A stretch of DNA of 64,000 nt from Triglochin maritima (taxonomy: Eukaryota > Streptophyta > Magnoliopsida > Alismatales > Juncaginaceae). The position numbers and the translations under genes are program-made. Shown piece by piece: positions 1,534 to 58,917 of the stretch. Numbering within the stretch: position 1 is the stretch's first letter; every line of letters begins with the position of its first letter. The DNA lies in assembly GCA_963682175.1 (NCBI GenBank), contig OY821784.1:27447621-27511620 (forward strand). The letters are read 5' to 3'. The notes under the pieces are model-generated. The model was not told the DNA's origin and did not search any database. It was given only the letters and a program-made list of their open reading frames with translations.

Positions 1534-3081
1534 TGATTGACATCGTATCATGCATATATTTGTGTCTTATATCCATTATCTTCAACCTAAACAATGCTAC
1601 GTAACGAGTTTTATGTTTGAGTTTCTGGAATAAACAGGATTGAGGAGAGGAGACATAAAAGGACCTAAAAGCAAGAAAAATGACTAAGTTGCAAGACTTA
1701 TGGACTAAGATGCACAAGAGAGGGACCCGAATATAAAACCAAAGGGTCATTGAGCAAATGAAGGAACTCCACACCATCATGAGGAGTATTTTGGCAATTC
1801 GATTCAGGACTGAGCTCCAACAACCGACTTGGATGCATCACACATAAATAAATCGAGCCAGACAACCACACACAAAAACCTGACCTGATCCAAAGCATAT
1901 AGACTGCCAATTGGCGGTCTATTTTGCTCCAAATCCGATAAGTTTTAGTCGGGTCATGTATTAGGGTGTTTTATGTCTAATTTTGGTGGTGTATTAGTCC
2001 CATATCGGGGGATTGTCCCCGATTGCCTTTTCTATGGCTATAAATAAAACTCCTCCTACCTTGTATTCCACCCATTGCTTTGTGGCATTCTCTCTACATG
2101 GAGTAAAAGTCTTGAAGCAAAAACTCAAGGTGGAGAAGAATGTCACTTGCAATGTGAGTCATGTTAATAAAATAATTCTTTCTTATTTACTATTAATATT
2201 GTCTTGACTTTTAATTCTTGCATGCTTCTTTAGTTTAATTTCCTTTCATTTAGCTTCTTTAATATTTCTTCTTTGCTTAGTTTAATTGCCTTTCATTAGA
2301 AAGTTTTGTTTTGTTAATGTAGTTTGTAGTGTAATGATTAGTGAGTAGTTCCATCCCCATTTTGGGGTGGAGAAATATGTGATGTGATTATGTGATGTAT
2401 TAGGTGTGTGTTATCTTAATCCTTTGAATCTTACATGATTTCCATAACCATCTAATGGGATTTCACTCTTGTCGTTGATATGCTAATGCTCTTGAATGAA
2501 GCTTAGCATATGATTAGATTATAGGACCTATTTTATGGGGAATGATGAGGTGAGGATATGGATGGAATTTATAAAGGAAACATGACTTGTAGTTGCATGT
2601 ACTCTTGTTGTCTTTACCTTGGTTAATGTCTTGTATGTTTTAATGATTGTGTAAATCTTATTTCATGTGGAGGCATATTAGGGTTTGGTTTTTATACATT
2701 AGTTCATTTAGCTTCATTCCAATTATTGTCTTGTATGTTTTAATGATAATGTGTTATCTTATTTCATGTGGAGGAAAAGTTGGATTTAGTTTTATGATTT
2801 TCATGCACTTCATGTTGTGATGAGCACAATTGAACACACACACATACGCATATTTTTGTATTCACACTCTTTGTTTATCCCCTATGGGTTTTAGTTTTAT
2901 TTTTGATTTTTCAATTCCTTTCGCATTCTAGAGTAGTTTCGATCATAACTCATTTCTCTCCTTTCTTTCCCACTCACCTTCAAACTAACCATAGTCGACA
3001 CACCTCCCTGTGGATCGACCCGTATTTGCTACCACTTCAACGCGACCGTGCACTTGCGGTTATTTTAAAACGTAACAATCA
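1534..3081 (+). mobile_element. solo gypsy LTR with 5-bp TSD GTAGG
   Basis: The 1548-bp LTR starts TGATTGACATC and ends CGTAACAATCA. It is flanked by GTAGG at 1529-1533 and 3082-3086. Its 3' end carries the family signature 'gtgcacttgcggtta', the reverse complement of the 'taaccgcaagtgcac' seen at 46497 and 51288. With no internal region and a perfect TSD, it is a solo LTR left by intra-element recombination, nested in an older LTR. Confidence 0.9.
1901..2045 (+). promoter_or_regulatory. LTR core promoter: inverted repeat plus TATA
   Basis: AGACTGCCAATTGGCGGTCT (1901-1920, one arm mismatch) lies 118 nt upstream of TATAAAT (2039-2045). The same inverted repeat and spacing occur in the other LTRs of this family. 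Confidence 0.6.
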
Positions 3082-3299: not shown

Positions 3300-3817
3300 A
3301 ACCCTGGCCCTGGGAGAATTACACACCAATTAGAAAAAAATGAAAAAAATAAGAACACAAAAAAAGGAAATGGTAATGAAAATAAGAACCTTAACGGACT
3401 TAACACTTTATATCACTAGATGATGTTAAGGTTGCTCATGTCTTTCACTTAAGTCCTTAAGTAACTTGCACGAATGATTCATTTGGCTAGGTGTGTGGAA
3501 TGAATACATATAGAGAGTGAACCCGTAGAATTACCGTGTCCAATGATCGACAAAAAAAGGTCCAACAAGTCGTGTTGCTAGATTGAATAATGCATCAATG
3601 TTCCAATTTTGTGGGTATATCCGCTGAAAACCCTCGGGAGACAACACTCCTCCTTGGCGATAAGGAGGTTTAATGGCTTTTTGCACACACTAAGTGCAAC
3701 CGTGATTCCTGCGAAAGTGAGTTAGGATTTCCCTATTTTGCGTATGTTTTTCCTTTCTTTCATTTTTCTCTTTCTTTGTTTTGCTCGGGACTAGCAAAAA
3801 CTAGGTGTAGGGTTATT
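3300..3817 (+). mobile_element. gypsy 3' internal fragment
   Basis: A second plus-oriented copy of the 3' internal region, similar to 60-517. It includes the hairpin at 3649-3668, 'gctcgggactagcaaaaac' and a purine-rich tract ending at 3817. It leads directly into the LTR at 3818. It is non-coding. Confidence 0.7.
3649..3668 (+). other. conserved GNRA-loop hairpin
   Basis: Sense strand reads CCTCCTTG, loop GCGA, TAAGGAGG. One G-T pair would be a G-U wobble in RNA. It is one of five copies in the window. Confidence 0.6.
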
Positions 3818-4560
3818 TGATTGACATCATATCATGCATATATTCATGTCTTATATCCTCTATTTTGAACCAAAGCAATGCTACGTAACGAGATTTATGT
3901 TTAAGTTTCAGGAATAAACATGTTTGAGAAGAAGAGACACACAAGGACCTGAACGCAAGAAAAAGAACAAATTTGTGAGGCTTATGGATTGATATGCAAG
4001 AGGGAAGGACCCGGTTGTAAACCAAAAGGACCAATAAGCAAATCAACAAACTCCACACCCTCATGAGGAGTATTTTGGCAATTGGATTCGAGTCTTGACA
4101 CACACAACCAATTCGGGTGCACCCCAAGAGAAGAAATGAAGCCACTCAGACGTTAAATGAAAACGGGTCGGATCGGAGCACTCCAGACCGCCAATTGGTG
4201 GTTGGATATGTGCCATATCCAATTAGACTTAGCCGGGTATTGTATTAGTGTGTTTAGGTCCATTTATAGTATGATGTTCGTCCCACATCGGGAGAGTGTT
4301 CTCGATTACCTTTTTCTATGACTATAAATAGAACTCTTCCTCCTCCATTGTAATGTACCCATTGCTTGGTGGTCATTCTCTCTACTTGGAGTAAGCCTTG
4401 GAGCAAAACTCAAGTGGAGAAGAATACTACTTGTAATGTGAGTCATGTAAATAAAATAATTCTTCTAGTTTTATCTTCATGTTGTCTCTTTTAATTCTTG
4501 CATGCTTAGCTTAATTTTGTTTTATCTTAATAAAATTAATTAGATTGTTTCCTTTTCTTA
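3818..4560 (+). mobile_element. gypsy LTR, 3' truncated
   Basis: Begins TGATTGACATCATATC directly after the purine-rich tract and is collinear with the first half of the solo LTR 1534-3081. It breaks off near 4560, where sequence in the opposite orientation starts. An inverted repeat (4185-4204, decayed right arm) lies 118 nt before TATAAATA at 4323-4330. Confidence 0.75.
4185..4330 (+). promoter_or_regulatory. LTR inverted repeat plus TATA
   Basis: AGACCGCCAATTGGTGGTTG at 4185-4204, then a 118-nt gap, then TATAAATA at 4323-4330. Confidence 0.55.
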
Positions 4561-8065: not shown

Positions 8066-9127
8066 TGTTTTGTCCTGACTCTGGTTTGGACGATTCGAGT
8101 GGTTTAATCTTTTGTGTTTAGTTTGTTTTTGTATCACATACATTGAAGCATCAAGGGGACACACCAGGAGAAATTCTGAGCAGAGATCAGCCATTGGGAC
8201 CGCCAATTGGCATCCTAGTGAGTTTATTTTGCATGTTGTGACCTATATTTTTCTCCCAGATCAATCAATTTCCCTTCTTAAGACAACTTGGATCATAAAA
8301 CTCAAAGCAAAAGATTAGACTAATTATCATCTAGGTCATGCATCACTTGTAGACCTCGCATGCACATTGTCTTTCAATTGCTTTAAATTCCTGTTGTCGA
8401 TTGTTGGCATGAGGTACGTGCACCCATTCTTTCATTCATGCATGGTTAGAGCATGCATTAGTTAGTAGGATTGCATTGCAACAAGAGTGAGGTGAGCCTT
8501 TTTTTGGAGAGTTGATTGTTAGATTAAGACTCAAAACGCTACTAAGGAGGGGTTGTCCCATACAAGATAAGGTGGAGAATTTCATCACCCTTTCTTTTGC
8601 CCCAAAAATCACTCTTAATCAAAGCCTTAATTGTAAAAGCAAGTAAACATTGGCCCTAAGGATTTTCGGATGCTCTAGGAGAGTGATCGAGTTGAGACCG
8701 TCATGACATGATCGATGTTGCCTGCCTTGTCGATAGTAGGAGGTACTGGATCTTCAAATCTAGTATCACTTGCTGGGCATTGTGGTCTTCGTTGTAGGGA
8801 GGTGAGGCGTGTCGAGAGTAGTGATCTCAAAGTTAGGCGTCGTCTAGCCTAAGGACTTATAGCCATAAGTTGTTTGAGCCTTGTTTGCTTGTGTGCTTCT
8901 ACCTTCTCCCACTACCCACGCTAGCTCTAGGGATTCTTCCTTTCTCATCTGAGTCTTCTCCTCTTCTATATTCTTCGTTATAGTCTCCTCCTCTGATTAC
9001 ACCTTCTGTTGTGTGTTGTTTTAGAGTCGAGTTGAGTGTTTTATGCGAGCTTGGGCTCGTTCTGGTGAGAGCGCTAGACTTGAGAGAGTGCATTTGTCTG
9101 AGATGGACGGTCTATGTGATTGCCCAT
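8066..9127 (+). mobile_element. gypsy 5' leader
   Basis: Untranslated leader between the primer-binding site and gag. It contains an inverted repeat GGGACCGCCAATTGGCATCC starting at 8196, 156 nt from the LTR edge. Frames at 8112 and 8899-9310 are not convincing genes. Confidence 0.5.
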
Positions 9128-9838: not shown

Positions 9839-10913
9839 AAAGGGAAACCATGAACATGCATATCACATAAAGTTGAGGTTGATTTTAGATTATCAAGCAT
9901 GCAATAAGTACCTAGTGTGGCCATTAGAGCATTAATCAATCCTACATACAACCTAAATCATTCATGTGAATGTGCACCAAACATGGATCCACGCATAATA
10001 AGTCATTCCCATCAAACCATTACAAGCAACAAGATAAACTCTAAAGCTAGCATTAGATAAGTACCTAGCGTGGACATTATCTCATCTAATACAAGTTTAA
10101 GCATGCTAGAAGTATAGATCTACATTAATCATATAAAATGGCACAAATAAAAGATCTCGTCACTAGCACATAATCTACATAACCTCCACCACCAAAGTAG
10201 GATGAAACTACTCACTACTCATCAAGAAAAATGAAATTAAACTAAGCATGCAAGAATTGAAAAGAGACAATATAAAACTAACAAAACTTTATTTATTACT
10301 CACTCATATTACAAGTAGCCTCTCTCCACCAGAGTTTTGCTCCAAGGCTTTACTCCTAGTAGAGAGGATGGCCACCAAAAAAGGAGATGGATTACAAAGG
10401 AGGAGAAAGAGTTCTATTTATAGCCATAGAAAAAGGTAACCCGGGATAATCCTCCGGTATGGGACTAAACACATACCAAATATAGCATAAAACACTATAA
10501 TACACATCTGATAGAAGACAGGTCGGATCCAGAGCTAAATAGACCGCCAATTAGCGGTCTGAATCTCCGGGATCCGACCCAATTTTGTCTGACTTGTTTG
10601 TAGCTTCGTTTCTTTTTCTGGAGTGTACCCTAATTGGTTGTGTGAGTTGCAACCCAAATCCAATTGCCAAAATACTCCTCATGAAGGTGTGGAGTGATTG
10701 ATTGTGCTAATTAGTCATTTTGGTTTTACATCTGGGTCCTTCTCTCTTGCACTCAGTCCATAAGTCTTGCAACTTGGTCATTTTCCTTGCTTTTAAGTCC
10801 TTTTTGAACCTGTTTATTCATGAAACATAAACATAAAACTAGTTACGTAGCATTGCTTAGGCTAAACAAAAAGGATATAAGACACAAATATATGCATGTT
10901 ATGATGTCAATCA
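9839..10913 (-). mobile_element. gypsy LTR, minus orientation, truncated
   Basis: The right boundary is the LTR 5' end (ATGATGTCAATCA at 10913). The left side lacks the usual 'taaccgcaagtgcac' end, so about a quarter of the LTR is gone. It contains the inverted repeat (10541-10560) and TATA box of the family. It abuts chromovirus pol on the right without an identifiable TSD. Confidence 0.7.
10415..10560 (-). promoter_or_regulatory. LTR inverted repeat plus TATA
   Basis: AGACCGCCAATTAGCGGTCT at 10541-10560 and, 118 nt downstream on the minus strand, TATAAATA at 10422-10415. Confidence 0.6.
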
Positions 10914-15675: not shown

Positions 15676-16910
15676 TGATGTGAATTAAATTTATACCGCA
15701 AGTGCACGACGTCAATGGAGACGTGGCAAATACGGGTCGAACACAAGGAGGGAGAGATTTGTTATTAATGTGATTTCGATTGGGGGAAAGAAGGAGAGAA
15801 GAAATAAGTTGGTTTTGAGATTTTTGATTTTTAATTATCTAAAGCAAGAAACAAGAACAATTAAAACTAAAACAAGAACAAAGAGGTGAATTCCGTTGGG
15901 TGGAGGTTTAGATTTAAGGTTTAGATTAGAGAATTCAGAAACTTATAATAAATCATATTAGTTATAAAGCATTACATGATAAATGATTTAACATAAACTC
16001 AAGTAATCAAAATATACTAACACGAAATTAAAATAATAACTTTTATTCTTCTTCTCTTCACCCTAAATCTGTCACCTCCACCCTTTGGAAAGAGGTAGAA
16101 ACTCATGGATGGAAAGGAGGAGAAGAGGACCTAGAGGAATTACAAAAGAAAAGTAAAAACAAGAAATAAAAGACAGAATTTTATTACTAAAGTGAAGAGT
16201 ACAAAACTGAAAATAAAAACAACTAAAAACTAGGTCTAAGGCCAAGGACCCTTCTACCATCGTTCTCGGGGCTATTTATAGCCGATACAAGGGATCCCAA
16301 TATATAAATGGAACGTACACACGTCAATACAGCATTGGTAAAAATTTGAGCACACGGATCGACTTTTGTGCGGCTAAATCGCCGCAATTTGTACATGAGG
16401 TGCGGCGAAATCGCCACCTTTTTAGCTCGGATTCGATCCAGATTTTTCCTGTGTGTTTATGGTATGATTTGATCCTCCTTTGCGCGTCTGGATTGATTCT
16501 TTCCATTCTTTTGAGCTCCGGATTAATTCCTTTATATATATGGAGATTCACATTGATTTTTCTTTAGATTTTCTCCATAATAATAAAAGCTACTCGTGAT
16601 TTGCAATTAGGTCCTTGACTTTTTGCAATTAAGTCCCCGGCTACTTTTGTGCTTAAGTCTTTGTTCTTTTTGTAATTAGATCTTGAATGCTTTTATGCTT
16701 GGATACATTTCCATTTGTAACCTGATAAACTTGAACTTGGTCTTTATGATAGAAATGAGTCTTTTGCACGCGTTTATGCTCGAGATGTGGGCAAATTGCA
16801 TTCAGGTCCCTGTATTCTGTAAATAAGACTAAACACATACCTTAGTAGCATTTATTGATGTAAAAGTAATCTAAATGAAAGACATATGATGCAATGTATG
16901 CAATGCATCA
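15676..16910 (-). repeat. 3' LTR of the gypsy element
   Basis: 1235 bp, TG...CA ends. Contains TATAAATA on the minus strand (16280-16273) and two inverted repeats at 16369-16386 (TGCGGC/GCCGCA) and 16399-16418. Confidence 0.9.
16273..16418 (-). promoter_or_regulatory. LTR inverted repeat plus TATA
   Basis: Imperfect inverted repeat GGTGCGGCGAAATCGCCACC (16399-16418) lies 118 nt from the TATA box (16273-16280), the same spacing as in the sister LTRs although the repeat sequence differs. Confidence 0.6.
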
Positions 16911-17038
16911 AATACCCCCACACCTAGATTTTGCTAGTCCCTAGCAAAACAGAAAATAAGAAAAATAAAAATAGGGAAATCCTAACTCATTTTCGTAGGA
17001 ATCACGGTTGCACTTAGCATGTGCAACAAGCCTTTAAA

Positions 17039-17058
17039 CCTCCTTGTTGCCAAGGAGG
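17039..17058 (-). other. conserved GNRA-loop hairpin
   Basis: Sense (minus) strand reads CCTCCTTGGCAACAAGGAGG: a perfect 8-bp stem with GCAA loop, 128 nt before the 3' LTR. Confidence 0.65.
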
Positions 17059-17999
17059 ACGAGTTTTGTCTCGTGAGGGTTTTCAGTTGACACACCCACA
17101 AAGTCTTAATTCAACATTCCATTAATAGCTCTCAATATCCCTACCTCAACCTTATACATCTCACTTCGAATTCTTGTATGCTCATTATATGAATCTAACT
17201 CATTAAAAATATGACTTGGTCTTTGTTCCTCCAACATTCACACCACTAACCCTTCTACACATGATATTACTTAAATTATTTTGCACGCCTCCTCTGGTGG
17301 TGAAGTATCATTCGGATCAACCATGGCATGGATCATTCTTTTAGCTTTGGGCCTTGAGTATTTTTTTTTCTTTTCTTCCGTGATTCAACACATTTGCTTT
17401 TTGACACTTTTACCCTTTTTGCATTCGTGTAGCGAGTTTGGTCGATAATCCCGAGCTGGTAGACTCAAGTTACCGGGTTTCAAGATACCCCTACGGACCA
17501 GTGACTCAAAGGCTTGGGCTTTTGTAATCATTTTGCAAAATGTGTTTTCTGCACTTTATTCCTTTATTTTTATTTTTATTTTCCTCAAGGCTTAATTGCT
17601 ATTAGAAGTCCACACTTCCCGGTATATTTTCCTCAACCTCTGCTTTTTATCAACCACTTCAAAGATTTGATTCATCCAATTTAAGTGCATACATGTCTTA
17701 AAGGGCAATGAGTTATTTCTTTGGAACTTAGATTTATGTCATAATTTCTACAAGCAGAACTATATAATAAGGAACAAAAACTCAATGCAATTTGTACACG
17801 GGTTCTGGCAGTTCAATCTTAAGCTATGTCATGAAACATTGAATTTTTTTTTAGAAATAAAAGACAGATCTATAGATAAATATATACATAAACATCCCCC
17901 CACACCTAAATCATGCATTGTCCTCAATGTATGCAAATATAAAGCAAATGAACTTATTACCTTGGTGAACTGCGGTGGAAGGATGAAATTTGCTCAAAG
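17059..17999 (-). mobile_element. non-coding 3' internal region of the gypsy element
   Basis: About 0.9 kb between the protease relic and the hairpin. No convincing frame. The 74-codon plus frame at 17785 is antisense and treated as chance. Confidence 0.5.
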
Positions 18000-20571: not shown

Positions 20572-21854
20572 ATTTGAAATTTAAATTCCAAATTTAATTT
20601 CAAGAATTAATTACAAATAATTTTTTTTTATATTTTCGTTTTTTTTTCAAAAGGGAAACAAACAATAGAATGGGGAAAGATGAGAAAGGAATCCTAATCT
20701 AGAGAATTTAGGTGAGAAGAGAAAGAAGACTCAGATGAGAAGGGAAACCTAACTCTAAAGATAGAAAGAGGGTTGGTCAGAAATTCCTAAGAAAGCACGG
20801 TTCAAACAATCCTAGACCTAGTGTCGCTTAGATCTAGACGACTCCTAACTGGTTGAGTCGAATTGATTTGCTTGATTCACCTCCCTCACTAATCAAACCA
20901 ACTTGGCCAGGCCGTGTATAGCTAGTGGGGGCGCTTCCGACAGAGTCGGTGCCAATTAGACAACCACTTCGCTTGGAAGACTTACGTCAACACAAAAACA
21001 CTTTCTAGACACCAAATTAAATTCAATCGGCTTCAGGTCATAGCAGTCAAACCAATTCTTCTCCTTAAATGAGTCCGAGTCCTTAGGGGTCAATGTCTAA
21101 TTGATTTTAATTTAAGGCTTGGGTGACACTTTAGGATTGTGATTTGTGGGCCACGGAAGGGTGATGAAATCTCCACCGTATCTTTGCCTACGGAGTTTCT
21201 CTTAAGATAGTTTAACTTAGATCTAGCAAAGATAGTCAAACAATGGTCTTTAGAGGGGGCAATTGCAAGGTTGTATGCAAACTAGATTATATGCTTAAAT
21301 GCAATCGATGAAAACCACGATACGTACCTTGACTCCAGCACTCTTCAACAGAAATTGATTTGCAAGAATTTAGCAAGAATAATGCATACAAAACGCTAGA
21401 TGATGCATGCACTAAGGCCTTTCTAATTTTGCTGATTTTAGGTCAGAGTTGAATTATTGCCAATTATGGAATTTTTTTTTGCCCTAACACATGCAGTTCT
21501 ACTAAAAGGAAATTTTCTGAAAATAGAAATTACGAGGAAAAGATGCAACAAAGGTTACCTTATGCAATGCTCAGTCGGGTTCACCGCCCGCTCTCGAAAT
21601 TTCAGATGCTCCACGCGTCCACCCAGAGATGGTGCTAACCCCAGAAAAATTTGAAGCCCAGAAGCTTTAGGTGTGCGGCGATTCCGCCGCAGGTTGCTCT
21701 TGGTATGCGGCGATTCTACCGCCCTTGTTGCTCAGACTACGTTCAGATTTCGCCGCGCGCTCTGTTGTCTCCTGAAACACAAACCCAAATACTTAGATCG
21801 CGTACAAGATAAACAAAACAGAATCGAAATCAACAAAGAACAAAATCTGCGTCG
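20572..21854 (-). mobile_element. gypsy 5' leader
   Basis: About 1.3 kb of untranslated leader. Two short inverted repeats built on TGCGGCG/CGCCGCA lie at 21674-21691 and 21706-21724, the outer one starting 156 nt from the LTR edge. Frames at 21457 and 21673 are not genes. Confidence 0.5.
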
Positions 21855-21874
21855 CCTTCCCGGCAATGGCGCCA
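21855..21874 (-). other. primer-binding site, tRNA-Asp
   Basis: Minus strand TGGCGCCATTGCCGGGAAGG, 6 nt from the 5' LTR. It matches the complement of the plant tRNA-Asp(GTC) 3' end at most positions. Confidence 0.75.
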
Positions 21875-21880
21875 AAAACT

Positions 21881-23115
21881 TGATGTGAATTAAATTTATA
21901 CCGCAAGTGCACGGCGTCAATGGAGACGTGGCAAATACGGGTCGAACACAAGGAGGGAGAGATTTGTTATTAATGTGATTTCGATTGGGGGAAAGAAAGG
22001 AGAGAAGAAATAAGTTGGTTTTGAGATTTTTGATTTTTAATTATCTAAAGCAAGAAACAAGAACAATTAAAATTAAAACAAGAACAAAGAGGTGAATTCC
22101 GTTGGGTGGAGGTTTAGATTTAAGGTTTAGATTAGAGAATTCAGAAACTTATAATAAATCATATTAATTATAAAGCATTACATGATAAATGATTTAACAT
22201 AAACTCAAGTAATCAAAATATACTAACACGAAATTAAAATAATAACTTTTATTCTTCTTCTCTTCACCCTAAATCCGTCACCTCCACCCTTTGGAAAGAG
22301 TTAGAAACTCATGGATGGAAAGGAGGAGAAGAGGTCCTAGAGGAATTACAAAAGAAAAGTAAAAACAAGAAATAAAAGACAGAATTTATTACTAAAGTGA
22401 AGAGTACAAAACTGAAAATAAAAACAACTAAAAACTAGGTCTAAGGCCAAGGACCCTTCTACCATCGTTCTCGGGGCTATTTATAGCCGATACAAGGGAT
22501 CCCAATATATAAATGGAACGTACACACGTCAATACAGCATTGGTAAAAATTTGAGCACACGGATCGACTTTTGTGCGGCTAAATCGCCGCAAATTGTACA
22601 TGAGGTGCGGCGGAATCGCCACCTTTTTTGCTCGGATTCGATCCAGATTTTTCCTATGTGTTTATAGTATGATTTGATCCTCCTTTGCGCGTCTGGATTG
22701 ATTCTTTCCATTCTTTTGAGCTCCGGATTAATTCCTTTATATATATAGAGATTCACATTGATTTTTCTTTAGATTTTCTCCATAATAATAAAAGCTACTC
22801 GTGATTTGCAATTAGGTCCTTGACTTTTTGCAATTAAGTCCCCGGCTACTTTTGTGTTTAAGTCTTTGTTCTTTTTGTAATTAGATCTTGAATGCTTTTA
22901 TGCTTGGATACATTTCTATTTGTAACCTGATAAACTTGAACTTGGTCTTTATGATAGAAATGAGTCTTTTGCACGCGTTTATGCTTGAGATGTGGGCAAA
23001 TTGCATTCAAGTCCCTGTATTCTGTAAATAAGACTAAACACATACCTTAGTAGCATTTATTGATGTAAAAGTAATCTAAATGAAAGACATATGATGCAAT
23101 GTATGCAATGCATCA
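21881..23115 (-). repeat. 5' LTR of the gypsy element
   Basis: 1235 bp, same ends and nearly the same sequence as 15676-16910. Confidence 0.9.
22478..22623 (-). promoter_or_regulatory. LTR inverted repeat plus TATA
   Basis: TATAAATA on the minus strand at 22485-22478. Inverted repeats at 22574-22591 (TGCGGC/GCCGCA) and 22604-22623 (GGTG...CACC), the second exactly 118 nt upstream. Confidence 0.6.
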
Positions 23116-30208: not shown

Positions 30209-31644
30209 TTGGTTATATCATCATACAAACCAAAAGCAGATAACCAGATGGATTGTTATCTGAGATGTGATCGCAGACGTGAAAGGAGTTCTCGTGATAC
30301 GAGTATTGCACTGCGAAAGAATACAAAAAGAAAAAGTTGCGGTTGTCGATTTTTGGTAAAAATGATGGAGCGACGGGATCGTGATAGATGTGTCATTGTT
30401 TCTAGTAGCATCTATGAGCAGCACAACCACCCACTTGCAGTTTATTCAGAGGGTCACCGACAGGTCAGCGGACTTAGTGCTGGGGCAAAGCAAATTGTTC
30501 GTGATATAACAGAGGCACAAGCAAGACCACGTAACATTTTGTTGGAGGTAAATGAGAAATTCCCGGACGATAATCCTAATCAAAGACACATTTATAACTT
30601 CAGAGAGTACACGAGGAAGACGAAATCTGAAGACAGGAATCCCGCGCAGCAGTTTCTCAAGGAGGCAGTGTACCATAAGTATTTGCATTGGATTGTGGCA
30701 GATGAAAAAACTAATGTCCTCACTCACGCATTTTTGGCACATCCGACTTCAGTTCAGTTGTTGCGTACATACCCATTCGTAATCTGCATGAATTCGACGT
30801 ATAAGACGAACAAGTACAAGATGCTTTTGTTTGAGATGGTTGGTGTTACTCAAACAAACATGAATTTCCTCGTCGGATATGCGATTTTGTAGGATGAGAC
30901 CAAGTCTAGTTACCGGTGGGTGTTGGAGAGGCTGCGAGATGTATTATTGGATATTGTTAGCCCGACTGCAATAATAACGGACCGAGAGATGGGTCTGATG
31001 CGACCCGTGGCAGAGGTTTTTCCTGAGTCTGCTCATTTACTATGCACCTGACATATCAACAAAGACGTGTACAACTACGCATACCACGTATTCGGCAAGG
31101 ACAAGCAACTTGCAGAGAGTTTAGGCGTGGAAGGTGGAGGAGAGTCATGCTTTCTGATTCACAGACAGATTATGATAGAGCAGTCCGTAATCTGAAAGAT
31201 TCTTACAAGTCCTGCGCAGTGCTGACGGAGTATGTGGAAGACACGTGGTTGGTGCATAAGGAAAAATTTGTGTTGAATTGGACGAATAAAGTTTTTCATT
31301 TCGGCAACACTACGAACTGCAGGATGGAAAGTGCACATTCGGCTCTGAAAGAGTGGATCACTACATCGACTGCCGCTCTCGACACTCTTTTTAACCGTGT
31401 GAACTCGGCTATTGAAATGCAGCTGACGAATATTCGTAACTTTCTTGAAGATTCGAGACGTCGAATTGTGACAAACTACATATGTCCTTTGTTTCAGCAT
31501 ATAAATGACCGAGTTTCGCATCACTACTTATCGTTATTGATTCAGGAGTTGAAGAGAATGCAAGACTTAAGTGATGAAATTGAATATCGTAACAGATCTC
31601 TCTCTCTCCTAACTGAAGCAGAAATACCACGTGTACGTGAATGA
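30209..31644 (+). pseudogene. MULE transposase with FAR1-type zinc domain, broken
   Basis: Plus strand, in order: a FAR1-like Cys/His region (CYLRCDRR, KSCGCRFLVK, EQHNHPL, about 30255-30440); linker; MULE transposase core with YKTNKYKMLLFEMVGVT (about 30795-30850), YRWVLERLRD and ITDREMGLMRPVAEVFPESA (30910-31035), HINKD; then, after a frameshift near 31060-31120, GRWRRVMLSD, DTWLVHKEKF, FGNTTNCRMESAHSALKEW and RRRIVTNYICPL up to 31644. In-frame stops lie at 30890 and at the W codon near 31048. The first catalytic Asp of the usual MDSTYKT is Asn (MNSTYKT). The C-terminal SWIM zinc finger is absent. The protein would have cut and moved the element, but this copy is inactive. Confidence 0.85.
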
Positions 31645-46476: not shown

Positions 46477-48007
46477 TGATTGATTCGTTTTATATTAACC
46501 GCAAGTGCACGGCCACGTTGAAGTGGTGGCAAATACAGGTCGTCCACTGGGAGGTGTGTCGACGTTTGGTTTGTGCGAAGGCGAGTGGTAAAGAAAGGAG
46601 AGAAAGATTGATTACACTAAACTACACTAGAATGCAAAAGGAAATGAAAGATAAACAATAAAACTAAACCCCAAAGGGGGTAGAGAAATAATGTGAATAT
46701 AAAAGATGTGTGTGTGTTTAATTAAGCTCATCACAACATGTAGTGCATGAAATCATAAAACTAAATTCAACTTTGCCTCTACATGAATTAAGATAAGATC
46801 ATATCATTAAAGCATACAAGACAATAATTGGAATGAAGCTAAATGAACTCATGTATAAAGACTAGACCCTACTATGCCTCCACATGAATTAAGATAACAC
46901 ATATCATTAAAACATACAAGACATTAACCAAGGTAAAGGCAACAAGAGTACATACACTACAAATTGTGTTTCCAATATTAATTCCATCCATATCCTCACC
47001 TTATCATTCCCCATAAAATATGTCCACTAATCTAAGCATAAGCTAAGCTTCATTCAAGAGCATTAGCATATCAAAGATAAGAGTGAAATCCCATTAGATG
47101 GTTATGGAAATCATATAAGGCTCAAGGGATTAAGATAACACACACCTAATACACTACATGATCATATCACATATTTCTCCACCCCCAAATGGGGATGGAA
47201 CTACTCACTAATCATTAAACTACTACATTAACAAAATGAAACATATTACTGAAAAGAAATTCAACTAAGCAAGAAAAGAACATTAAAGAAGCTAATTGAA
47301 AGAAACATAAACTAAAGAAACATGCAAGAATTAAAAGACAAGATTAAAAGAAACTAAAACAATCATTTTATTAACAATGACTCACATTGAATGTAGTATT
47401 CTTCTCCACCTTGAGTTTTGCTTCAAGGCTTACTCCTTAGTAGAGAGAATGCCACCAAGCAATGAGTAGTTTACAATAGAAGGTGAAAAGTTCTATTTAT
47501 AGCCAAAGAAAAAGGCAATCCGGGACAATCCCCCGATGTGGGACTAAACAAATACCAAAAATAGACTAAATACACACTAATACGCGACCCACCAAAATCT
47601 TAGCGGATTTGGGCCAAAACAGAACGCCAATTAGCGGTCTATATGGTCCGGATCACGCTGGATTTTATTCTGAGCTTTTCTGGATGTCTTTGTTGGTCTC
47701 TGATGCATCTACTTCACTTGTTGGAGCTCCGACCCGAATAGAATTGCCAAAATACTCCCCATGATGATGTGAAGTTTTCTGTTTTGCTCTTTGGTCCTTC
47801 GGTCTTACGTTCAAGTCATTCTCCCTTGCATCTTAGTCCCCAGGTCTCACAATTAAGTCCTTTCCCCTGGTTTTGGGTCCTTTCATGCTTCATCTCTTCA
47901 AACCTATTTATTTCTGAAATTCAAACATAAAACTCGTCACGTAGCATTGCTTAGGTGTAAGATAATGGATATAAGATACAAATATAAGCATCAAATGATG
48001 TCAATCA
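46477..48007 (-). repeat. 3' LTR
   Basis: Starts TGATTGATTCG and ends GATGTCAATCA on the plus strand. Inverted repeat at 47621-47640, TATA at 47494-47501. Confidence 0.9.
47494..47640 (-). promoter_or_regulatory. LTR inverted repeat plus TATA
   Basis: AGAACGCCAATTAGCGGTCT (47621-47640), 119 nt upstream of TATAAATA on the minus strand. Confidence 0.6.
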
Positions 48008-48127
48008 AATACCCCCACACCTAAGTTTTTGCTAGTCCCGAGCAAAACAAAGGAGGAGAAAAATAAACGAGAAACAAGAAATCATAACTCACTTTCGTTG
48101 GAATCATGGTTGCACTTAGCCGTTAAA

Positions 48128-48147
48128 CCTCCTTGTTGCCAAGGAGG
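48128..48147 (-). other. conserved GNRA-loop hairpin
   Basis: Sense strand CCTCCTTGGCAACAAGGAGG, perfect 8-bp stem with GCAA loop, 120 nt before the 3' LTR. Confidence 0.65.
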
Positions 48148-49673
48148 AGGAGTGGTGTCTCTTGAGGGTTTTCAACGGATATATATACCCACAAAATCCG
48201 AACAAGATGCATTATTCAATCTAGACACTCGACTCGTTGGACAAATTTTGTCGATCATTGGACGCGGTAATCCTACGGGCCGACTCTATATAGGTAATTA
48301 GTCCACACACTTAGCCTAATGAATCATTCATGCAAGTTAAATAAGGAATTAAGTGAAAGACATGTACAACCTCAACATCCTCAAGTGATACAAAGTGTAA
48401 AGTCCATTAAGGTTCTTATTTGCATTACAATTTTTTTCTTTGTTTTTTTCTCATTTTTTTGTTTTTCTTCTTTTCTTTTTTATTAGTTGGAGCTTCATTC
48501 TCCCAGGGTCAGGTTTCGTGCATCATTGCCCATGAGGACTTACACTATCACGTACACCTTTCCCCAAATCTCGACATATGGCGATCCCTACCACCCGTGT
48601 AACGGGAGTTCGGTCGGTGCATCCCAAGTCAGATGACTAGAAAGCACCAGGCACAAAGTCCCCTCAGATCTACTTTCCCGAGTGATAGGAGCCGTGCGAG
48701 AAGAGAGAACACATACTCACTTATTTCTTATTTACACATGAACCAAAACCCCTACACTTAATGTCTCACAACAAGATTTAAAGGGTCCTTGACTACAACA
48801 AACTTCCTTAAATTAACAGACACGAATTATTAATTCACTAGGTTCAGGGTGGACTTCTTTAAATGTTTAAGTACTGAAACCCTATGATTACTCGCCCCCC
48901 GAGGGAAAACTGGGGTGCATCCTAACGATTATATAAGTCCTAAAGCCACTGTACTAGATATCCTAATGCATCAAGTTCAAGACAATTTTGGGACATTTCT
49001 TTTTACTTTGCCTCTCAACAGTTTTGCACATGCTAAACACACACAAAACCTACAAAACATTTTCTTTCGCAAACACATGAAGATTTTGAAAGAAATGTGA
49101 AAATTTTAAGGCATTAGGCAAGCAAAAGAAGACAAGTCACCCAAGGATCATGGCAAGCATATATATCGATATTAAATGCAGCACACTAACATGACCCTAA
49201 CAATGCAAACAAAAGAAAACAAAATCAAAAGAAAAGACTCGACTATGTACACACGTAAAACACCCCCCACACCTACTTCATGCATTGTCCTCAATGAATG
49301 CGAGCAAGATACTACATGGAATTATGCAATGAAACCGGGAAGATCTCACCAACGTGAAGCGCAAAAGGAAGTTTATGGTTATGTTGATGGACACAAACCC
49401 GAATTCCCCTCCAAATCTGTGAGATACTTAAAAAGGGAGACAAAAATACGTGAAAGAAAAGGGGCCCAAATACACAAGGGTTGGAGCCCACAACAATCGA
49501 TGCTCACTGAAGGAGTCCTTTATTGTACTTTTTTTCTTCTTCTATTTTTTTGAATATATCAATGTACAAACATAAGTTCCCATCTTCATTTGTCAAAAGA
49601 CATCAAATGGGAACCTCAAAAGTGGGTCAATGCACTTGGAAAGGGAACATGACACCACGCGGGGCCAGAATAC
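48148..49673 (-). mobile_element. non-coding 3' internal region
   Basis: About 1.5 kb, collinear with 4660-6070. No convincing frame; the plus frames at 48029, 48420 and 49176 are antisense chance frames. Confidence 0.5.
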
Positions 49674-50516
49674 TCATGCGTGGCCTCCTTCACAAAGAGC
49701 ACAAGATGGAATGAGCGGTTCATGAATTGGACGCAAAGGCATCTCATTCAAAGGATCAAACTGAAAGTGCTTGAACCTCTCAAGAGTTTGGGAAATAAGG
49801 GGCAACGGAAGAAGAGTTTCTCCCGTTACGCTGCTGAAGTTATGATCGTCAATCCAAACTCTCCAACCAACAGGCTGGTGCGTCGGAACGAGGTCAAGAA
49901 CCTCGTTAGGCATGTCCGACACACCAGGCGAATAAAAAGTGGGTCTCATACCCAAGGTATCCTCCAAGGAACTCCTAATACCCTCATGAGCAATGTAGTT
50001 GTTTGATGTTCCATCATTTCCAAGATGACCAGGAACAATAGTGAGAGACAAACTCTCATCAGGTTGTTTGAAATTGAGGGTACTAGGGAGCTCTTGCTCC
50101 ACCAGAGGTGAGTCCTTAAGAGGCACAACATGAAGATCAAGTGGCTCAAGGGCCACGAGACAAAAAGATAAGGCACAATCTTGTGCCGACTCATAATGAA
50201 GCTGGTCCATGTTATTCTCAATTTGAATCGAATCCTCTATTAGGTGATCGTGAATTGAAACCCCAAGTCCCTCTGACTGACTAGGAGTTTGACTTTGAAA
50301 GATTGTGCTTTGAATTTGTGGATGTGGTGGTGGTTCGATATCAAAAGATGAATCCTCATGTTGACCAGAAAAGTTACTCTCCTCATGTTCACGTAATTGC
50401 TGCGACATTTGACTCACTTGCAGTGCCATATTTTGTATGGACTTTTGAGTGGTTTCCATGAACGTAAAGAAAGTTTGTCTCAAGGAATTAGGTATGCGGA
50501 CAACTATGAGGTCCAA
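49674..50516 (-). CDS. gag-remnant fusion ORF of the gypsy element
   Basis: An uninterrupted 280-codon frame, and the same frame stays open upstream to about 50660 with a Pro/Gln/Asn-rich stretch (PPQYPPPEY) like a gag linker. The N-terminal part (METTQKSIQNMALQVSQMSQQL) is a predicted coiled coil aligning with the gag coil of the element at 15676-23115 (QTTNQTFQRLETQVSQL). The rest is acidic and unrecognised. Its C-terminal third (GWRVWIDD, GETLLPLPL, ER) matches the frame at 6071-6388. So zinc knuckle and protease look deleted, joining gag to a downstream unknown segment. Whether it is translated is unknown. The missing stops in a copy with slightly diverged LTRs are notable. Confidence 0.5.
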   Translation of the reverse strand: MDLIVVRIPNSLRQTFFTFMETTQKSIQNMALQVSQMSQQLREHEESNFSGQHEDSSFDIEPPPHPQIQSTIFQSQTPSQSEGLGVSIHDHLIEDSIQIENNMDQLHYESAQDCALSFCLVALEPLDLHVVPLKDSPLVEQELPSTLNFKQPDESLSLTIVPGHLGNDGTSNNYIAHEGIRSSLEDTLGMRPTFYSPGVSDMPNEVLDLVPTHQPVGWRVWIDDHNFSSVTGETLLPLPLISQTLERFKHFQFDPLNEMPLRPIHEPLIPSCALCEGGHA

Positions 50517-50742
50517 GTCCGAATTTGAGAAATTTTGGGGTTGGGTGTTGGTGGGCTGAGAATGAGTCCAATGATTTGGAGTGGGGTGTTGGTAGACTTC
50601 TAGGTATTCGGGAGGAGGATACTGGGGTGGAAATGATGTATAAGAATTTGAATAAGAATTGTCTCCCCACCTTATCTTTTACGGGACAACCCCTCCTTAG
50701 TAGCGTTTTGATCCTAAATCTAGCAATCAACGCTCCAATCAA

Positions 50743-51241
50743 ACGCTCAACTCACTCTTGTCCTGATGCAATTCGTACTAACTAATGCATGGGCATACAA
50801 GATGCATGAATGAGTGTAGGAATTGCGTACCTCACGCCAGCGCTCAACAACTGAAAATAAAGCTAAAAGAAAAGACAACTACGTGCCTAAGTCAAGTACA
50901 TGATGCGTGACCTAAACAAGTAAGAATGTCTAATCTTTTGCTTTGGATTTTAAGGCCAAGTTGATTAATGGGGATTTGTTTAATGATCTGGGAGCAAACT
51001 AGAAGTCATAGCATACAAAATAGGGCTCCCAGATAACTACAATGAAAGAATAAACTACCAGAAAAAAACTGAGAGCAAGAAACGCTCACCAAGAAAAAAA
51101 TTGGCGGTCCCTGTTGAAGTTTTTGTGCTCCAACTCCTCTAGTAGCCTCCCCATGATCCAAAGGTCCCCTGAAACAAAAAAAAACTAAAAACAAAAAATT
51201 AAAACCACTCCAATCGTCCAAACCAAAGTCTGGACAGAGCA
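50743..51241 (-). mobile_element. gypsy 5' leader
   Basis: Untranslated leader. It holds a half inverted repeat TTGGCGGTCCC at 51101-51111; on the sense strand GGGACCGCC starts 156 nt from the LTR edge. Confidence 0.5.
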
Positions 51242-51261
51242 CCTCCCCGACAACGACGCCA
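51242..51261 (-). other. primer-binding site, tRNA-Asp type
   Basis: Minus strand TGGCGTCGTTGTCGGGGAGG, 6 nt from the 5' LTR. Confidence 0.7.
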
Positions 51262-51267
51262 AAAACT

Positions 51268-52800
51268 TGAATGATTCGTTTTATATTAACCGCAAGTGCA
51301 CGACCGTGTTGAAGCGGTGGCAAATACGGGTCGTCCACTGGGAGGTGTGTCGACATTTGGTTTGTGCGAAGGCGAGTGGTAAAGAAAGGAGAGAAAGATT
51401 GATTACACTAAACTACACTAGAATGCAAAAGGAAATGAAAGATAAGCAATAAAACTAAACCCCAAAGGGGGTAGAGAAATAATGTGAATATAAAAGATGT
51501 GTGTGTGTTTAATTAAGCTCATCACAACATGTAGTGCATGAAATCATAAAACTAAATCCAACTTTGCCTCTACATGAATTAAGATAAGATCATATCATTA
51601 AAGCATACAAGACAATAATTGGAATGAAGCTAAATGAACTCATGTATAAAGACTAGACCCTACTATGCCTCCACATGAATTAAGATAACACATATCATTA
51701 AAACATACAAGACATTAACCAAGGTAAAGGCAATAAGAGTACATACACTACAAATTGTGTTTCCAATATTAATTCCATCCATATCCTCACCTTATCATTC
51801 CCCATAAAATATGTCCACTAATCTAAGCATAAGCTAAGCTTCATTCAAGAGCATTAGCATATCAAAGATAAGAGTGAAATCCCATTAGATGGTTATGGAA
51901 ATCATATAAGGCTCAAGGGATTAAGATAACACACACCTAATACACTACATGATCATATCACATATTTCTCCACCCCCAAATGGGGATGAAACTACTCACT
52001 AATCATTAAACTACTACATTAACAAAATGAAACATATTACTGAAAAGAAATTCAACTAAGCAAGAAAAGAACATTAAAGAAGCTAATTGAAAGAAACATA
52101 AACTAAAGAAACATGCAAGAATTAAAAGATAAGATTAAAAGAAACTAAAACAATCATTTTATTAACAATGACTCACATTGAATGTAGTATTCTTCTCCAC
52201 CTTGAGTTTTGCTTCAAGGCTTACTCCTTAGTAGAGAGAATGCCACCAAGCAATGAGTAGTTTACAACAGAAGGTGAAAAGTTCTATTTATAGCCAAAGA
52301 AAAAGGCAATCCGGGACAATCCCCCGATGTGGGACTAAACAAATACCAAAAATAGACTAAATACACACTAATACGCGACCCACCAAAATCTTAGCGGATT
52401 TGAGACAAAACAGACCGCCAATTGGCGGTCTATATGGTCCGGATCACGCTGGATTTTATTTTGAGTTTTTTCTGGATGTCTTTGTTGGTCTCTGATGCAT
52501 CTACTTCACTTGTTGGAGCTCCGACCCGAATAAAATTGCCAAAATACTCCCCATGATGATGTGGAGTTTTCTGTTTTGCTCTTTGGTCCTTCGGTCTTAC
52601 GTTCAGGTCATTCTCCCTTGCATCTTAGTCCCCAGGTCTCACAATTAAGTCCTTTTTCCCTGGTTTTGGGTCCTTTCATGCTTCATCTCTTCAAACCTAT
52701 GTATTTCTGAAATTCAAACATAAAACTCGTCACGCAACATTGCTTAGGTGTAAGACAATTGATATAAGATACAAATATAAGCATGAAATGATGTCAATTA
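51268..52800 (-). repeat. 5' LTR
   Basis: Starts TGAATGATTCG and ends GATGTCAATTA on the plus strand; one terminal base differs from the 3' LTR (TA instead of CA). Confidence 0.9.
52285..52431 (-). promoter_or_regulatory. LTR inverted repeat plus TATA
   Basis: Perfect 20-bp palindrome AGACCGCCAATTGGCGGTCT at 52412-52431, 119 nt upstream of TATAAATA (52292-52285). Confidence 0.65.
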
Positions 52801-53579
52801 CATTGCACCATGTAAGTGTTTTGATTAACAAATTAAAAATTATGTGTATTATTTTTTATTAGACCTTAAGTAATTAATTTTTTTCAGGAGCAATCGCCGG
52901 ATATTAGGTGTATCGAGCACGGTATTCAGTTCAACACGTGGACTGTGGAGGATGATAGGGTATGAGATTTGCTGGAGATTGCTGAATTTGATATGGTTTC
53001 TCTTTTGCACCGACTACAACTGAATTAGAATCTGATCCGTGTTGTAGTTGAGGTGGAGGCCGGAGAGTCACACCTTCGATTTTAGACATAGGGAGATGAC
53101 AATCATGCTACAAGATGTAGTTATTCTTGGTGATCTTCGTATTGACAGTCTAGCTGTGTGTGCAACCTTAGATCATGATTGCCTTGAGGTTTGAACGGAC
53201 TTGTTGGGTGTTCATGAAGAAGAGGTAACGAATGCAGTGAAAGGGGAATACGTCTCGTTGCAGTGGTTGCAGTAAAATTTTCATGTCGTGGTGTTTGATA
53301 CAACAGACGAGGAAGTGTTGCAATACACTAGAGACTTCATTTTGTTTCAGTTAGGTTCTGCGATAGTAGGAGATAAGAGTGGAAATAAAGTCCACCTTAT
53401 ATACTTACTTTTGCTGGAGGATCTCATCGAATGTCGAAACTACAATTGGGGAGCTATCTCTTTGGTTGTTCTGTACAATTACTTGGATTAAGCCTGTTTG
53501 AAAAATGGGAAACAAGTAGCTGGGTTCCTAACGTTATTACAGATTTGGTGTTGGGAATATCTTAAAGTTGTGCGACCAT

Positions 53580-54976
53580 TGTTGAACGTTTTAATTAAAA
53601 CCGCAAGTGCACGGCCACGATGAAGCGATGGCAAGTACGGGTCATCCTCAGGGAGGTGAGAAGCCTCTTGTTTATCAGAAATCAAGTGGCAAAAATTGGG
53701 GGAGAAAGATTGATTATGCTACTCTACACTAAACTACGCTAAGAAGTATGAAATGCGAACGAAAGAAACAAACAATGAAATAATAACTAAGCTAAGAACA
53801 AAGGAAGAATGCTGGAATACAGAAATGGGAAAACCCCTAAGGGTGGAGTGAGTGCACACATGCAAAGAGGTGGGTGTAGAATACATTCTTTAAACACATG
53901 AAGGTGGTGTTTATCAAGCATAGGAAGTGTCTAAATGTTATGGCAAAACCTATCAATCTATTCACTAACTTAGTTGATTAACATTTACATATGCAAGTTG
54001 TTTATTTCAGAACCTAAACAAGCATGAGAGGTGTCTAATCATTTTGGCAAAACTCATCAAGTTATAAATTCTATCCTAAACAAGAGGGCATATATTCATT
54101 TTTTATCAAAACATCAAAAATAAAGCATTCATCCCATTCTCTAATGCATGTATGTACATCTACTCCACCCCCCAAAGGGGATGGAACTACTCACTAAACA
54201 TTACACTAATTATTAAACTAAGCAAAGAAAGCATATTAAAACTAAGCTAGAAATAAAAGACGATTAAACTAAAACATGCACCAACAATAAAAGAAGCACA
54301 AAACAAAGGAAATTTTATTGATTGAAGACTCACATTACCAGTAGCATCTCCCCTATTGAGTTTCTTGCTTCAGGGCTTTCACTTCAATTAGGGAGAATGA
54401 CCACAAGCATGGAGTCATTACATTGGAAGGTGAAGAGTTCTATTTATGGCTAGAGAAAAAGCTAATCCGGGACAATCCCTCGATGTGGGACTAAACAAAT
54501 ACCATAAATAGCATAAACACGCTCTAATACACGCGCCAGAAAAAGCTAAGAGGATTCGGATCCGCCTGGACCGCCAATTAGCGATTCCAGACCGCCAATT
54601 GGCGGTCTATAGGATCCGGATTAGTCTGGGCTTTCTTGGAGGCTTTCCTGGATGGTATTCTTTGTCTTTGATGCATCTACTTGGTTTGTTGGAGCTCCGT
54701 CCCGAATCGAATTGCTAAAATACTCCCCATGATGTTGTGGAGTATTCTGTTTTGCTCTTAGGTCCTTCTGTCTTGCGTTCAGGTCCTTCTCCCTTGCATC
54801 TTGGTCCCCAAATCTCACAATTCAGTCCTTTTTCCCAACTTTTGGGTCCTTTTATGCTTCATCTCTTCAAACCTATTTATTCCTGAAAACTAAACATAAA
54901 ACTCGTAACATAGCATTGTTTAGGTTAAAGATAATGGATATAAGATACGAATATAAGCATGAAATGATGTCAATCA
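53580..54976 (-). mobile_element. solo gypsy LTR, TSD ACCAT
   Basis: 1397 bp, TGTTGAACG...GATGTCAATCA on the plus strand, TSD ACCAT at 53575-53579 and 54977-54981. It carries 'aaaccgcaagtgcacgg' like its relatives. It splits the PMD reading frame (VVRP / FKEY). Confidence 0.92.
54441..54608 (-). promoter_or_regulatory. LTR with duplicated inverted repeat plus TATA
   Basis: A perfect AGACCGCCAATTGGCGGTCT at 54589-54608 and a second, decayed copy at 54568-54587 in tandem. The copy nearer the TATA-like element (54441-54448) keeps the 119-nt spacing. Confidence 0.6.
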
Positions 54977-57270: not shown

Positions 57271-58917
57271 ATGGCTAGTACATCTAATCACGTAAAGGGA
57301 TTATGCACAACTCGACCTCCGTTGCTATAAGGGTCTAGCTATGATTATTGGAAGAATAGGATGAAGATTTTCCTAATTTCTAATGACCTCAAGTATTGGA
57401 TGTTTCTCCAAAATCCATACACACCCCCAAATGAAGATGAATTAGATTCACTTACAAGACCCAAAATGAAAGAAATCGAAATGAATTCGAAAATCATGAA
57501 CATCTTGTATTGTGGCCTTAATGAGGGTGAATATAATAGGATTAGAGGTTGTGTTAGTGCATATGAGATTTGGCATAGACTACAAATGCATCATGAAGGG
57601 GATAGCAAAACTAAGGAAACCCGCATTAGTCTCCTCATGCATAAATATGAGATTGTTTCTATGCAAATCGGTGAAAACATAAGCGAAATGAACACTCGCT
57701 TCACCGATATCACTAACTCTCTTTTGGTTCTTGGAAGAAAAATCAATGAAGGAGAGATGACAAGGAAGTTCCTCCGGTCACTTAGCATCGATTGGGAAGA
57801 CAAAGTCGTCGCAATTGAAGAGGCGCATGATCTTTCTAAATTAAAGATGGAGGAACTCGTTGGAAATCTCATGGCGTATGAACTCCAAATCAACCATCGA
57901 AAGGAGAAGGAAGCCTCCAAGAATAAACACACATTGGGATTACATGCAAACATTGACCAACCAAGGAAGAGTGTAGAAGATGAGGATATTGAAGTCCTAG
58001 CAAAAGACTTCTTCAAATACCTCAAGAAGGATAAAGAAGAAACGAATGAAAGAAGAGGTAGAAGGAGTGAAAAGAGAGAAAAGAAGGAGAAGGAAGAAAG
58101 TGGAAATGAGAGAAAAGAGAAGGAGAAGAAAAATGAGAGGAGGGAGAGAAGGAAAGAAAAGGAGAAAAGTAAGAGAAAAGAGAAGAGGTTGGAAGCTCAC
58201 AAGGCTACATGGGACGATTCATCGTCTTCATCGTCATCCAAATCGATCACACCTTCATCAACAAAAGAATATGCACACATGTGATACATGGCCATTCAAG
58301 AAGAAGGAAGTGAGGTAGAATCTAACTCTTGCTCTAGTAATTCATGCTCAACTAAGTCATATTATAGTGATAGCTCACATTCTAGTGTTAATGAAGAAAC
58401 TTATACTCATGATGAGCTTCAAAATGCATTTCATGACTTAGTTAAACAATATGAGATCATTTGTGATAAAAACAAAAGTGCTAGAAAGTTAATCAAAGAT
58501 CTCCAAAGCCAAATTGAAACATGCATGAATGCGAAGAATGAGGCGATTGCTAAATTTGAAAAGAATGCATCAAATATTGATAAATTAAGAGCAACACCCA
58601 TAGATTGTGATCAACTAAATCTTCAAGCTTGTAATTTGCAATTAAGAAAAGATTTAGAAAGATTCACAAATGAAACTCATATGCTCAACATGTTATTAGG
58701 TAGTCAAAGACAATCCTTGCAAAAACATGGTTTAGGTTACAATTCAAAATTGAAAAACCATGTATCTCACACTACACTAAATGGCAAGCATATGTTCATT
58801 AACCATAGTTCCTCAAGTGTGTGGGCTCCTAAAACCAAAATGGTTTGGGTTCCCAAAACTAACATTCAAGGACCCAAAGTTGTTTGGGTACCTAAATCTA
58901 CACTTGTAGGAGCTTGA
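57271..58917 (+). pseudogene. copia gag, two in-frame stops
   Basis: Start ATG at 57271 (MASTSNH, then the usual TTRPP and YDYWKNRMKIFL). One frame runs to 58915, broken by TAA at 57328 and TGA at 58282, where relatives would have Cys. It holds the UBN2-type gag domain (SAYEIWHRLQMHHEGDSKTK, ISEMNTRFTDITNSL, KFLRSLSIDWEDKV, LSKLKMEELVGNLMAYEL), then a Lys/Arg/Glu-rich run (58040-58195) where a CCHC zinc knuckle is expected, then KATWDDSSSSS, a coiled region and the C-terminal WVPK repeats. No zinc knuckle was found. About 549 codons in all. It would package element RNA if the stops were absent or read through. Confidence 0.85.

Follow-up and report, generated by a model that had tools for sequence, protein, structure and literature searches.

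Paired palindromes at fixed promoter and leader positions in LTR retrotransposons of Triglochin maritima

LTR elements and palindromic units in the window

The window analysed here is a 64,000-nt stretch of the Triglochin maritima genome (assembly GCA_963682175.1, contig OY821784.1, positions 27,447,621 to 27,511,620), in which several long terminal repeats (LTRs) and LTR retrotransposons carry a short palindrome upstream of the TATA box. An earlier note on this DNA had pointed to the palindrome; we find that both it and its distance to the TATA box are genuine and under selection, and that the finding is larger than that note described. The units come in two family-specific forms, namely ACCGC-N6-GCGGT in the elements termed FG and GCGGC-N6-GCCGC in the H family, which is represented in the window by the element at 15676-23115. 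This H element has two LTRs, a primer-binding site (PBS), a CCHC zinc knuckle and a protease whose relatives carry PF13650, with no reverse transcriptase apparent among its listed open reading frames of at least 90 aa. The element at 46477-52803 has LTRs and a PBS, and its longest open reading frame has no Pfam match. We read these elements as non-autonomous gypsy-type LTR retrotransposons from the PBS, gag, protease type and family knowledge rather than from a reverse transcriptase tree; the Ty3/gypsy assignment of the H element leans on that family knowledge and is one that we assume.

At up to three mismatches, the palindrome AGACCGCCAATTGGCGGTCT occurs at six sites in the window and in none of 100 shuffles, while the 1.063-Gb genome holds 67,590 such sites as against one for the reversed control. 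Two distance measures are used: the gap between palindrome and TATA box (118-119 nt), and the distance from the first base of the 18-mer unit to the TATA box (137-139, 138, 159 or 106 nt). By the former, the claim of a palindrome 118-119 nt upstream of the TATA box is borne out in the LTRs at 1534-3081 (a single unit at 1901..1920, its 18-mer 137 nt before the TATA box), 3818-4560 (4185..4204) and 9839-10913 (a single unit at 10541..10560), each with a gap of 118 nt, and in the 3′ LTR (47621..47640, two mismatches) and 5′ LTR (52412..52431, perfect) of the 46477-52803 element, both with 119 nt. All these are of the FG form; the LTRs at 1534-3081 and 3818-4560 are read on the plus strand and the other named LTRs on the minus strand. 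Close variants are present in the named LTRs, but their symmetry is eroded at 4185 (7 of 10 pairs) and 47621 (8 of 10 pairs). The LTR at 53580-54976 does contain a duplicated copy, but the perfect, outer unit at 54589..54608 (−159) is 140 nt from the TATA box, and it is a degenerate unit 21 nt away, at 54569..54586, that holds the common position (−138).

In the H element, units lie 138 and 106 nt before the TATA box in both the 3′ LTR (16401..16418 and 16369..16386, 32 nt apart) and the 5′ LTR (22606..22623 and 22574..22591). The inverted repeat reported earlier for these LTRs was found in both, one copy with a mismatch, and at the reported 118 nt, but as framed it has only 5 of 10 symmetric pairs; the better dyad lies in a shifted frame, GTGGCGATTTCGCCGC (with one T-G), and a second H unit, TGCGGCGATTTAGCCGCA, follows 32 nt downstream.

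Units in the 5′ leader had been overlooked. Those of the H element (21674-21723, minus strand) comprise L1, decayed and 151 nt after the PBS (21706..21723), and L2, 183 nt after the PBS and 32 nt from L1 (21674..21691). A single decayed FG leader unit lies at 8198..8215 on the plus strand, 152 nt beyond a PBS-like site (8046, 4 mismatches), and a broken FG remnant (GACCGCCAAT and then a T run) lies on the minus strand at 51092..51109, 152 nt after the PBS at 51261, its end coordinate following from the 18-mer length.

Spacing grid, leader copies and conservation of the arms

A first survey covered the window, loci L001-L005 and 18 of 20 arbitrarily placed 10-kb segments (together loci L001-L023), the other two falling past a short contig's end. 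Across these, the units are frequently paired: FG-type U3 regions carry them 159 and 138 nt before the TATA box, a 21-nt period, or have the 138 unit alone, H-type U3 regions carry them at 138 and 106 nt, a 32-nt period, and locus L017 adds a third FG unit, a perfect one, another 21 nt away from the TATA box. All 23 U3 promoters showing a unit with a TATA box in range have one at 137-139 nt, a count from which four rows were dropped as wrong-strand H units with a chance TATA-like match. Moreover, 53 of the 55 sites at up to three mismatches sit within range of a TATA box or PBS, the exceptions being the third unit of L017 and a three-mismatch site at L019:4273. The spacing to the TATA box is about as constant as the earlier note held, but it belongs to single, double and once triple arrays, with a second pair in the leader. 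The half-site geometry, 5-mer-N6-5-mer, is identical in FG and H.

The leader pair is of the same family-specific type and has equal spacing, starting about 152 nt after the PBS. A first scan recovered it, partly decayed, at 8 of 9 PBS loci, the ninth being the remnant that follows the window PBS at 51261; a wider scan gave a unit 151-154 nt after the PBS at 9 of 10 PBS loci, FG and H alike, followed in 8 of these 9 by a second unit at 21 nt (FG) or 32 nt (H). Within each family, the arms are identical between U3 and leader. H leaders also contain a conserved half-site, GCGCGGCGAAATC, which lies 34 nt upstream of L1 and has no second arm. On reading alone, the leader units appear flanked by splice-acceptor-like TTTCAG/GAGAC and donor-like CTG/GTGAGC or GTAAGC (FG) or AG/GTAACC (H), for example at about 1430-1620 on the minus strand of L001 and at 21640-21800 in the window; the leader may be spliced, with the palindromes retained in an exon.

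A further sample was chosen by the PBS and not by the palindrome. The LTR end plus PBS, used as the anchor, gave 4,627 and 4,697 exact matches on the two strands; the 100 places listed are all on contig C1, and 70 of them were typed by LTR tail as 41 H, 22 F and 7 G. We analysed 50 elements (22 H, 21 F and 7 G), the choice of H elements favouring varied tails. All 22 H elements have two leader units, in each case 32 nt apart, and all 22 have two U3 units, 32 nt apart in 21 and 31 nt apart in one with a decayed second unit; overall, 43 of 44 H pairs show the 32-nt spacing. The FG leaders hold a pair in 22 of 28 elements, a single unit in 3 and none in 3, two of the last having unrelated-looking sequence and the third resembling an H promoter. 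In the FG U3, there is a pair in 16 of 28 (15 plus one resolved by a further stretch), a single unit in 8, at least one of which (F11111004) is really a pair clipped by the stretch end, and none left in 4; the U3 stretches covered for the F elements 16890939, 19200625, 19856209 and 19917598, extension included, show neither unit nor TATA box. The spacing of FG pairs is 21 nt in 37 of 37, and one further pair is also at 21 nt. The unit stands 136-138 nt before the TATA box in 19 of 19 FG promoters and 138 nt before it in 8 of 8 H promoters with both in view; H keeps this distance despite its extra downstream unit, and by our reading of the LTR alignment about 31 nt are absent nearer the TATA box. 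Genome-wide, a pattern for H pairs that left the gap free between 1 and 30 nt returned 7,956 matches as compared to 0 for the control; among the matches listed, which all lie within the first 10 Mb of contig C1 and overlap the PBS-anchored sample, the spacing is 32 nt in 50 of 50 places.

Conservation is concentrated in the arms. Over the 20 arm columns of distinct paired-site sequences (19, 20, 15 and 20 of them), mean pairwise identity is 0.947 in H U3, 0.962 in H leader, 0.937 in FG U3 and 0.934 in FG leader; the corresponding values are 0.588, 0.720, 0.598 and 0.602 for the flanks and 0.505, 0.561, 0.463 and 0.507 for the spacers, and none of 5000 random column sets was as conserved as the arms. 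Finding the units by seed similarity (at most 6 mismatches) and keeping none but pairs with the spacing of their family biases arm identity upward to some extent; yet every H element gave units. The unit centre varies in H U3 (identity 0.602), varies less in H leaders (0.843) and is conserved in FG (about 0.91), and whole unit windows including the centre rank less sharply (2 to 84 of 183 to 291 18-column windows). Selection on the motif is supported.

Other features accompany these elements. The motif GTCCCACATCG is seen in FG-type LTRs such as those of 53580-54976 and 46477-52803 and in the sampled F and G U3 stretches. In 17 of the 18 FG promoters that have a TATA box in view it begins 42-43 nt ahead of TATAAATA, the 18th reading being a chance upstream match; it is not found in the H-type LTRs seen. 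It resembles the plant small nuclear RNA upstream sequence element (RTCCCACATCG), and a literature search returned no publication linking this consensus to LTR retrotransposons. Also conserved is a second hairpin, CCTCCTTG-N4-CAAGGAGG with a variable loop, which lies about 115-170 nt inside the window elements from the 3′ LTR (17039-17058, 48128-48147 and 3649-3668), with further sites at L010:1254, L012:4121, and L019:1976 and 9798. Other elements in the window are indicated by a MULE transposase match at 30209-30892, weak and under the Pfam cut-off, and by a copia-type gag (PF14223) at 57361-58284.

A putative dimeric reader and its rivals

For units whose sequence, pairing, spacing, position, conservation and dual placement we observe directly, we favour, with moderate confidence, the interpretation that they form a cis-regulatory module of paired dyad sites for a putative dimeric DNA-binding protein. 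Two tandem dyad-symmetric sites would be bound by this sequence-specific protein and would lie on roughly the same side of the helix, 21 nt amounting to two turns (FG) and 32 nt to about three (H) at 10.5 bp per turn. One site is locked about 138 nt before the TATA box; the module recurs about 152 nt after the PBS, on the downstream side of the expected start of transcription and again at a locked distance, and the units of each element family share one arm sequence. Binding would activate transcription, and the family-specific arms would reflect a changed recognising protein or a swap of the whole module. We favour the protein dimer because the half-site geometry is constant, the spacing is near-integral in helical turns and the promoter position is fixed. 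The earlier note had offered a dimeric protein site, an RNA hairpin or a DNA cruciform; the first fits best, and the other two are disfavoured by the tests of compensatory change and wobble given below. NF-Y (CCAAT) and E2F were set aside as a common reader of both families: on reading, the FG centres are mostly CCAAT or ATTGG and the H centres are not.

Several points weigh against the paired protein sites. The binding protein is putative and we assign it no identity; moreover, the FG and H arms do not form one consensus, so a single host factor for both is not obvious. In most copies the inner dyad of FG leader unit L1 is broken (CCAATCAG), Watson-Crick arm cells slightly exceed shuffles (543 against 538.8, 29 of 1000 as high), and the leader is where retroelement RNA signals also sit. 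The spacer in U3 of some H elements is similar to that in the leader, and the module seems to have been copied between leader and U3; such copying means that the equal U3 and leader spacings are not independent and that fixed spacing is partly inheritable. In some H copies the spacers look alike in direct form, so direct copying is likelier than an inverted duplication between leader and U3, which we rejected on reading as the spacers are not alike when inverted. H pairs that are in U3 by position and have a leader-like spacer (ACCTCAAGAGCAAATT) lie on contig C1 at 7888458, 7677026 and 7682290.

Of 612 arm-pair cells of distinct units, 543 are Watson-Crick, 19 G-U, 33 A-C and 17 other; G-U is not preferred over A-C (19 versus 33, two-sided p 0.07, the direction being against RNA), and the excess of A-C is strongest in the leader (21 versus 9). 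The outcome that the earlier note had set against its own idea, arm changes no more often compensatory than expected, is what we observe within families: 2 of 612 cells are changed on both sides against 0.82 when shuffled, a level that 195 of 1000 shuffles attain. When all ten pairs are counted, changes on both sides are fewer than in shuffles (15 versus 19.07); locus L012, outside that sample, has one both-sided arm change. The lack of a compensatory excess and of a G-U preference counts against an RNA hairpin or a cruciform but leaves a sequence-specific site unaffected, and within families the arms are maintained mainly as sequence. The proposal that symmetry and spacing persist while the arms change holds for one family-level switch, FG versus H, which alters both sides of two of the five arm pairs (half-sites outward from the dyad being GCGGT and GCCGC), but not within families. 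A DNA cruciform or other strand-structural role, in which symmetry alone would matter, is very improbable: many copies have perfect dyads, but the arms are conserved as sequence, the H centres are variable and often asymmetric, and compensatory changes are not in excess. We also give little credence to the paired palindromes being a target of the host, folding into a long hairpin in read-through RNA that feeds small-RNA silencing, as proposed for the palindromes of maize Sireviruses, which the available text of PMC5311732 and PMC10760457 associates with small RNAs. In most of the 12 segments folded, tandem units can form a single long stem, but this accounts for a consequence and not for the element's retention of the arms, and neither the wobble nor the compensatory signal is present. 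Inheritance without selection, whereby young copies of a few master elements would have the motif in common by descent, would fit the close relationship of many copies and the copying of the module between U3 and leader; we think it improbable, as in the same copies the arms are far more conserved than spacers and flanks, and the positions are common to families whose surroundings barely align.

The main rival to the protein dimer is an RNA signal, in which the palindromes of the leader bring about dimerisation or packaging and those of U3 pair with the leader to circularise the RNA for strand transfer, in the manner of Ty1 PAL and CYC5:CYC3. The leader palindromes lie shortly after the PBS, and one palindrome stands near both RNA ends with equal spacing. 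Furthermore, leader and U3 units are complementary, with means of 15.6-17.8 Watson-Crick pairs of 20 (L1 with D and L2 with U, in the 34 elements with all four units), exceeding the self-pairing of H units (13.1-14.3); some leader and U3 units are exact reverse complements, and two elements that were co-folded gave strong predicted duplexes. In FG, however, the self-pairing of U, D and L2 (17.2-17.5) about equals the cross-pairing (16.5-17.8). Pairing of leader with U3 looked a striking source for the exact reverse complements, but element-wise covariation is not seen: own partners do not outdo family-swapped ones (p 0.32-0.82 for L1:D and L2:U), and a p of 0.013 came from a single comparison in direct orientation, that of FG L1 with D. 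Complementarity of the outer flanks within a pair is above mononucleotide shuffles, yet much as with swapped partners, own exceeding swapped by 0.4 and 1.0 kcal/mol in two FG groups and not in H. A-C changes outnumber G-U, above all in the leader, compensatory changes show no excess, and the fixed TATA distance is left unexplained. We retain an RNA role since the leader position is typical of retroelement RNA signals and, in the text available, Ty1 and Ty3 offer precedents (PMC5454406, PMC11381356); dimerisation or cyclisation is a live possibility, albeit a doubtful one.

A bolder and rather unlikely extension of the paired protein sites is a family-specific recognition code, in which each family would carry its own palindrome up to four times (two in U3 and two in the leader), read by a co-evolving factor, element-encoded or hijacked by the element, that activates the promoter and/or selects the RNA of the family. 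If so, non-autonomous members lacking reverse transcriptase would preserve the code out of dependence on the factor.

Comparison with known systems

Tandem protein sites in the leader after the PBS are familiar from the Su(Hw) array of Drosophila gypsy, which is non-palindromic, serves as an insulator and belongs to an animal element. Among the open-access papers listed (10 of 164 in one of the searches), the entries and abstract openings show none describing palindromes in gypsy U3 and leader together. The palindromes of Ty1 (PAL, with CYC5:CYC3; PMC5454406) and the Ty3 PAL6 dimerisation site (PMC11381356) are alike, as far as the available text goes, in lying in the 5′ part of the RNA, Ty1 also having complementarity between leader and 3′ end. 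A palindrome or leader-3′ complementarity in the RNA is likewise found here, but those signals act at the RNA level, whereas our tests for selection on RNA pairing (covariation and G-U tolerance) gave no sign of it. On the protein side, LBD/AS2 (LOB-domain) proteins bind GCGGCG and discriminate palindromic DNA as dimers, according to the accessible part of PMC10118128. Many H units read GCGGCG-N4-CGCCGC and could be taken as inverted half-sites of this kind, whereas the FG units are without GCGGCG.

The nearest known kind is the set of RM boxes of Sireviruses (Ty1/copia), palindromes upstream of the TATA box in plant LTRs described by Bousios et al. 2010 (PMC2829016), whose available text reports no common binding factor and calls for promoter tests. 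As described there, short palindromes are repeated before the TATA box, recur at an internal site in the env-bearing Sireviruses and have arms that vary between elements. The H arms, GCGGC...GCCGC, are those of the Sorghum RM AGGGCGGCAGTGCCGCCCT, and the junction of two FG units, CGGTC-N3-GACCG, is near RM CGGTCAGACCG. A dyad palindrome repeated upstream of the TATA box is present in our elements too, with many FG promoters carrying one unit only. The RM core CGG-CCG is found in the H units as CGG-N8-CCG, whereas FG units are CCG-N8-CGG, with CGG-CCG only at the pair junction. The high RM copy number (at least 8 per element) is not seen: there are one or two units per U3, three in one locus, and none to two in the leader. 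The present units further differ in their gypsy-type setting, a second site in the 5′ leader, the rigid 21/32-nt grid and the unit at −138; the available text of PMC2829016 mentions neither such a grid nor a copy of the module in the transcribed leader. The gypsy-type setting, leader copy and rigid grid look new, a novelty that we regard as provisional. Palindromic boxes in the promoter, described in Ty1/copia Sireviruses, are thereby extended to a gypsy-type group that has tens of thousands of sites in a single plant genome. Two families there, different in arms and alike in grid, offer a natural experiment on how changes in a promoter code and in its reader go together.

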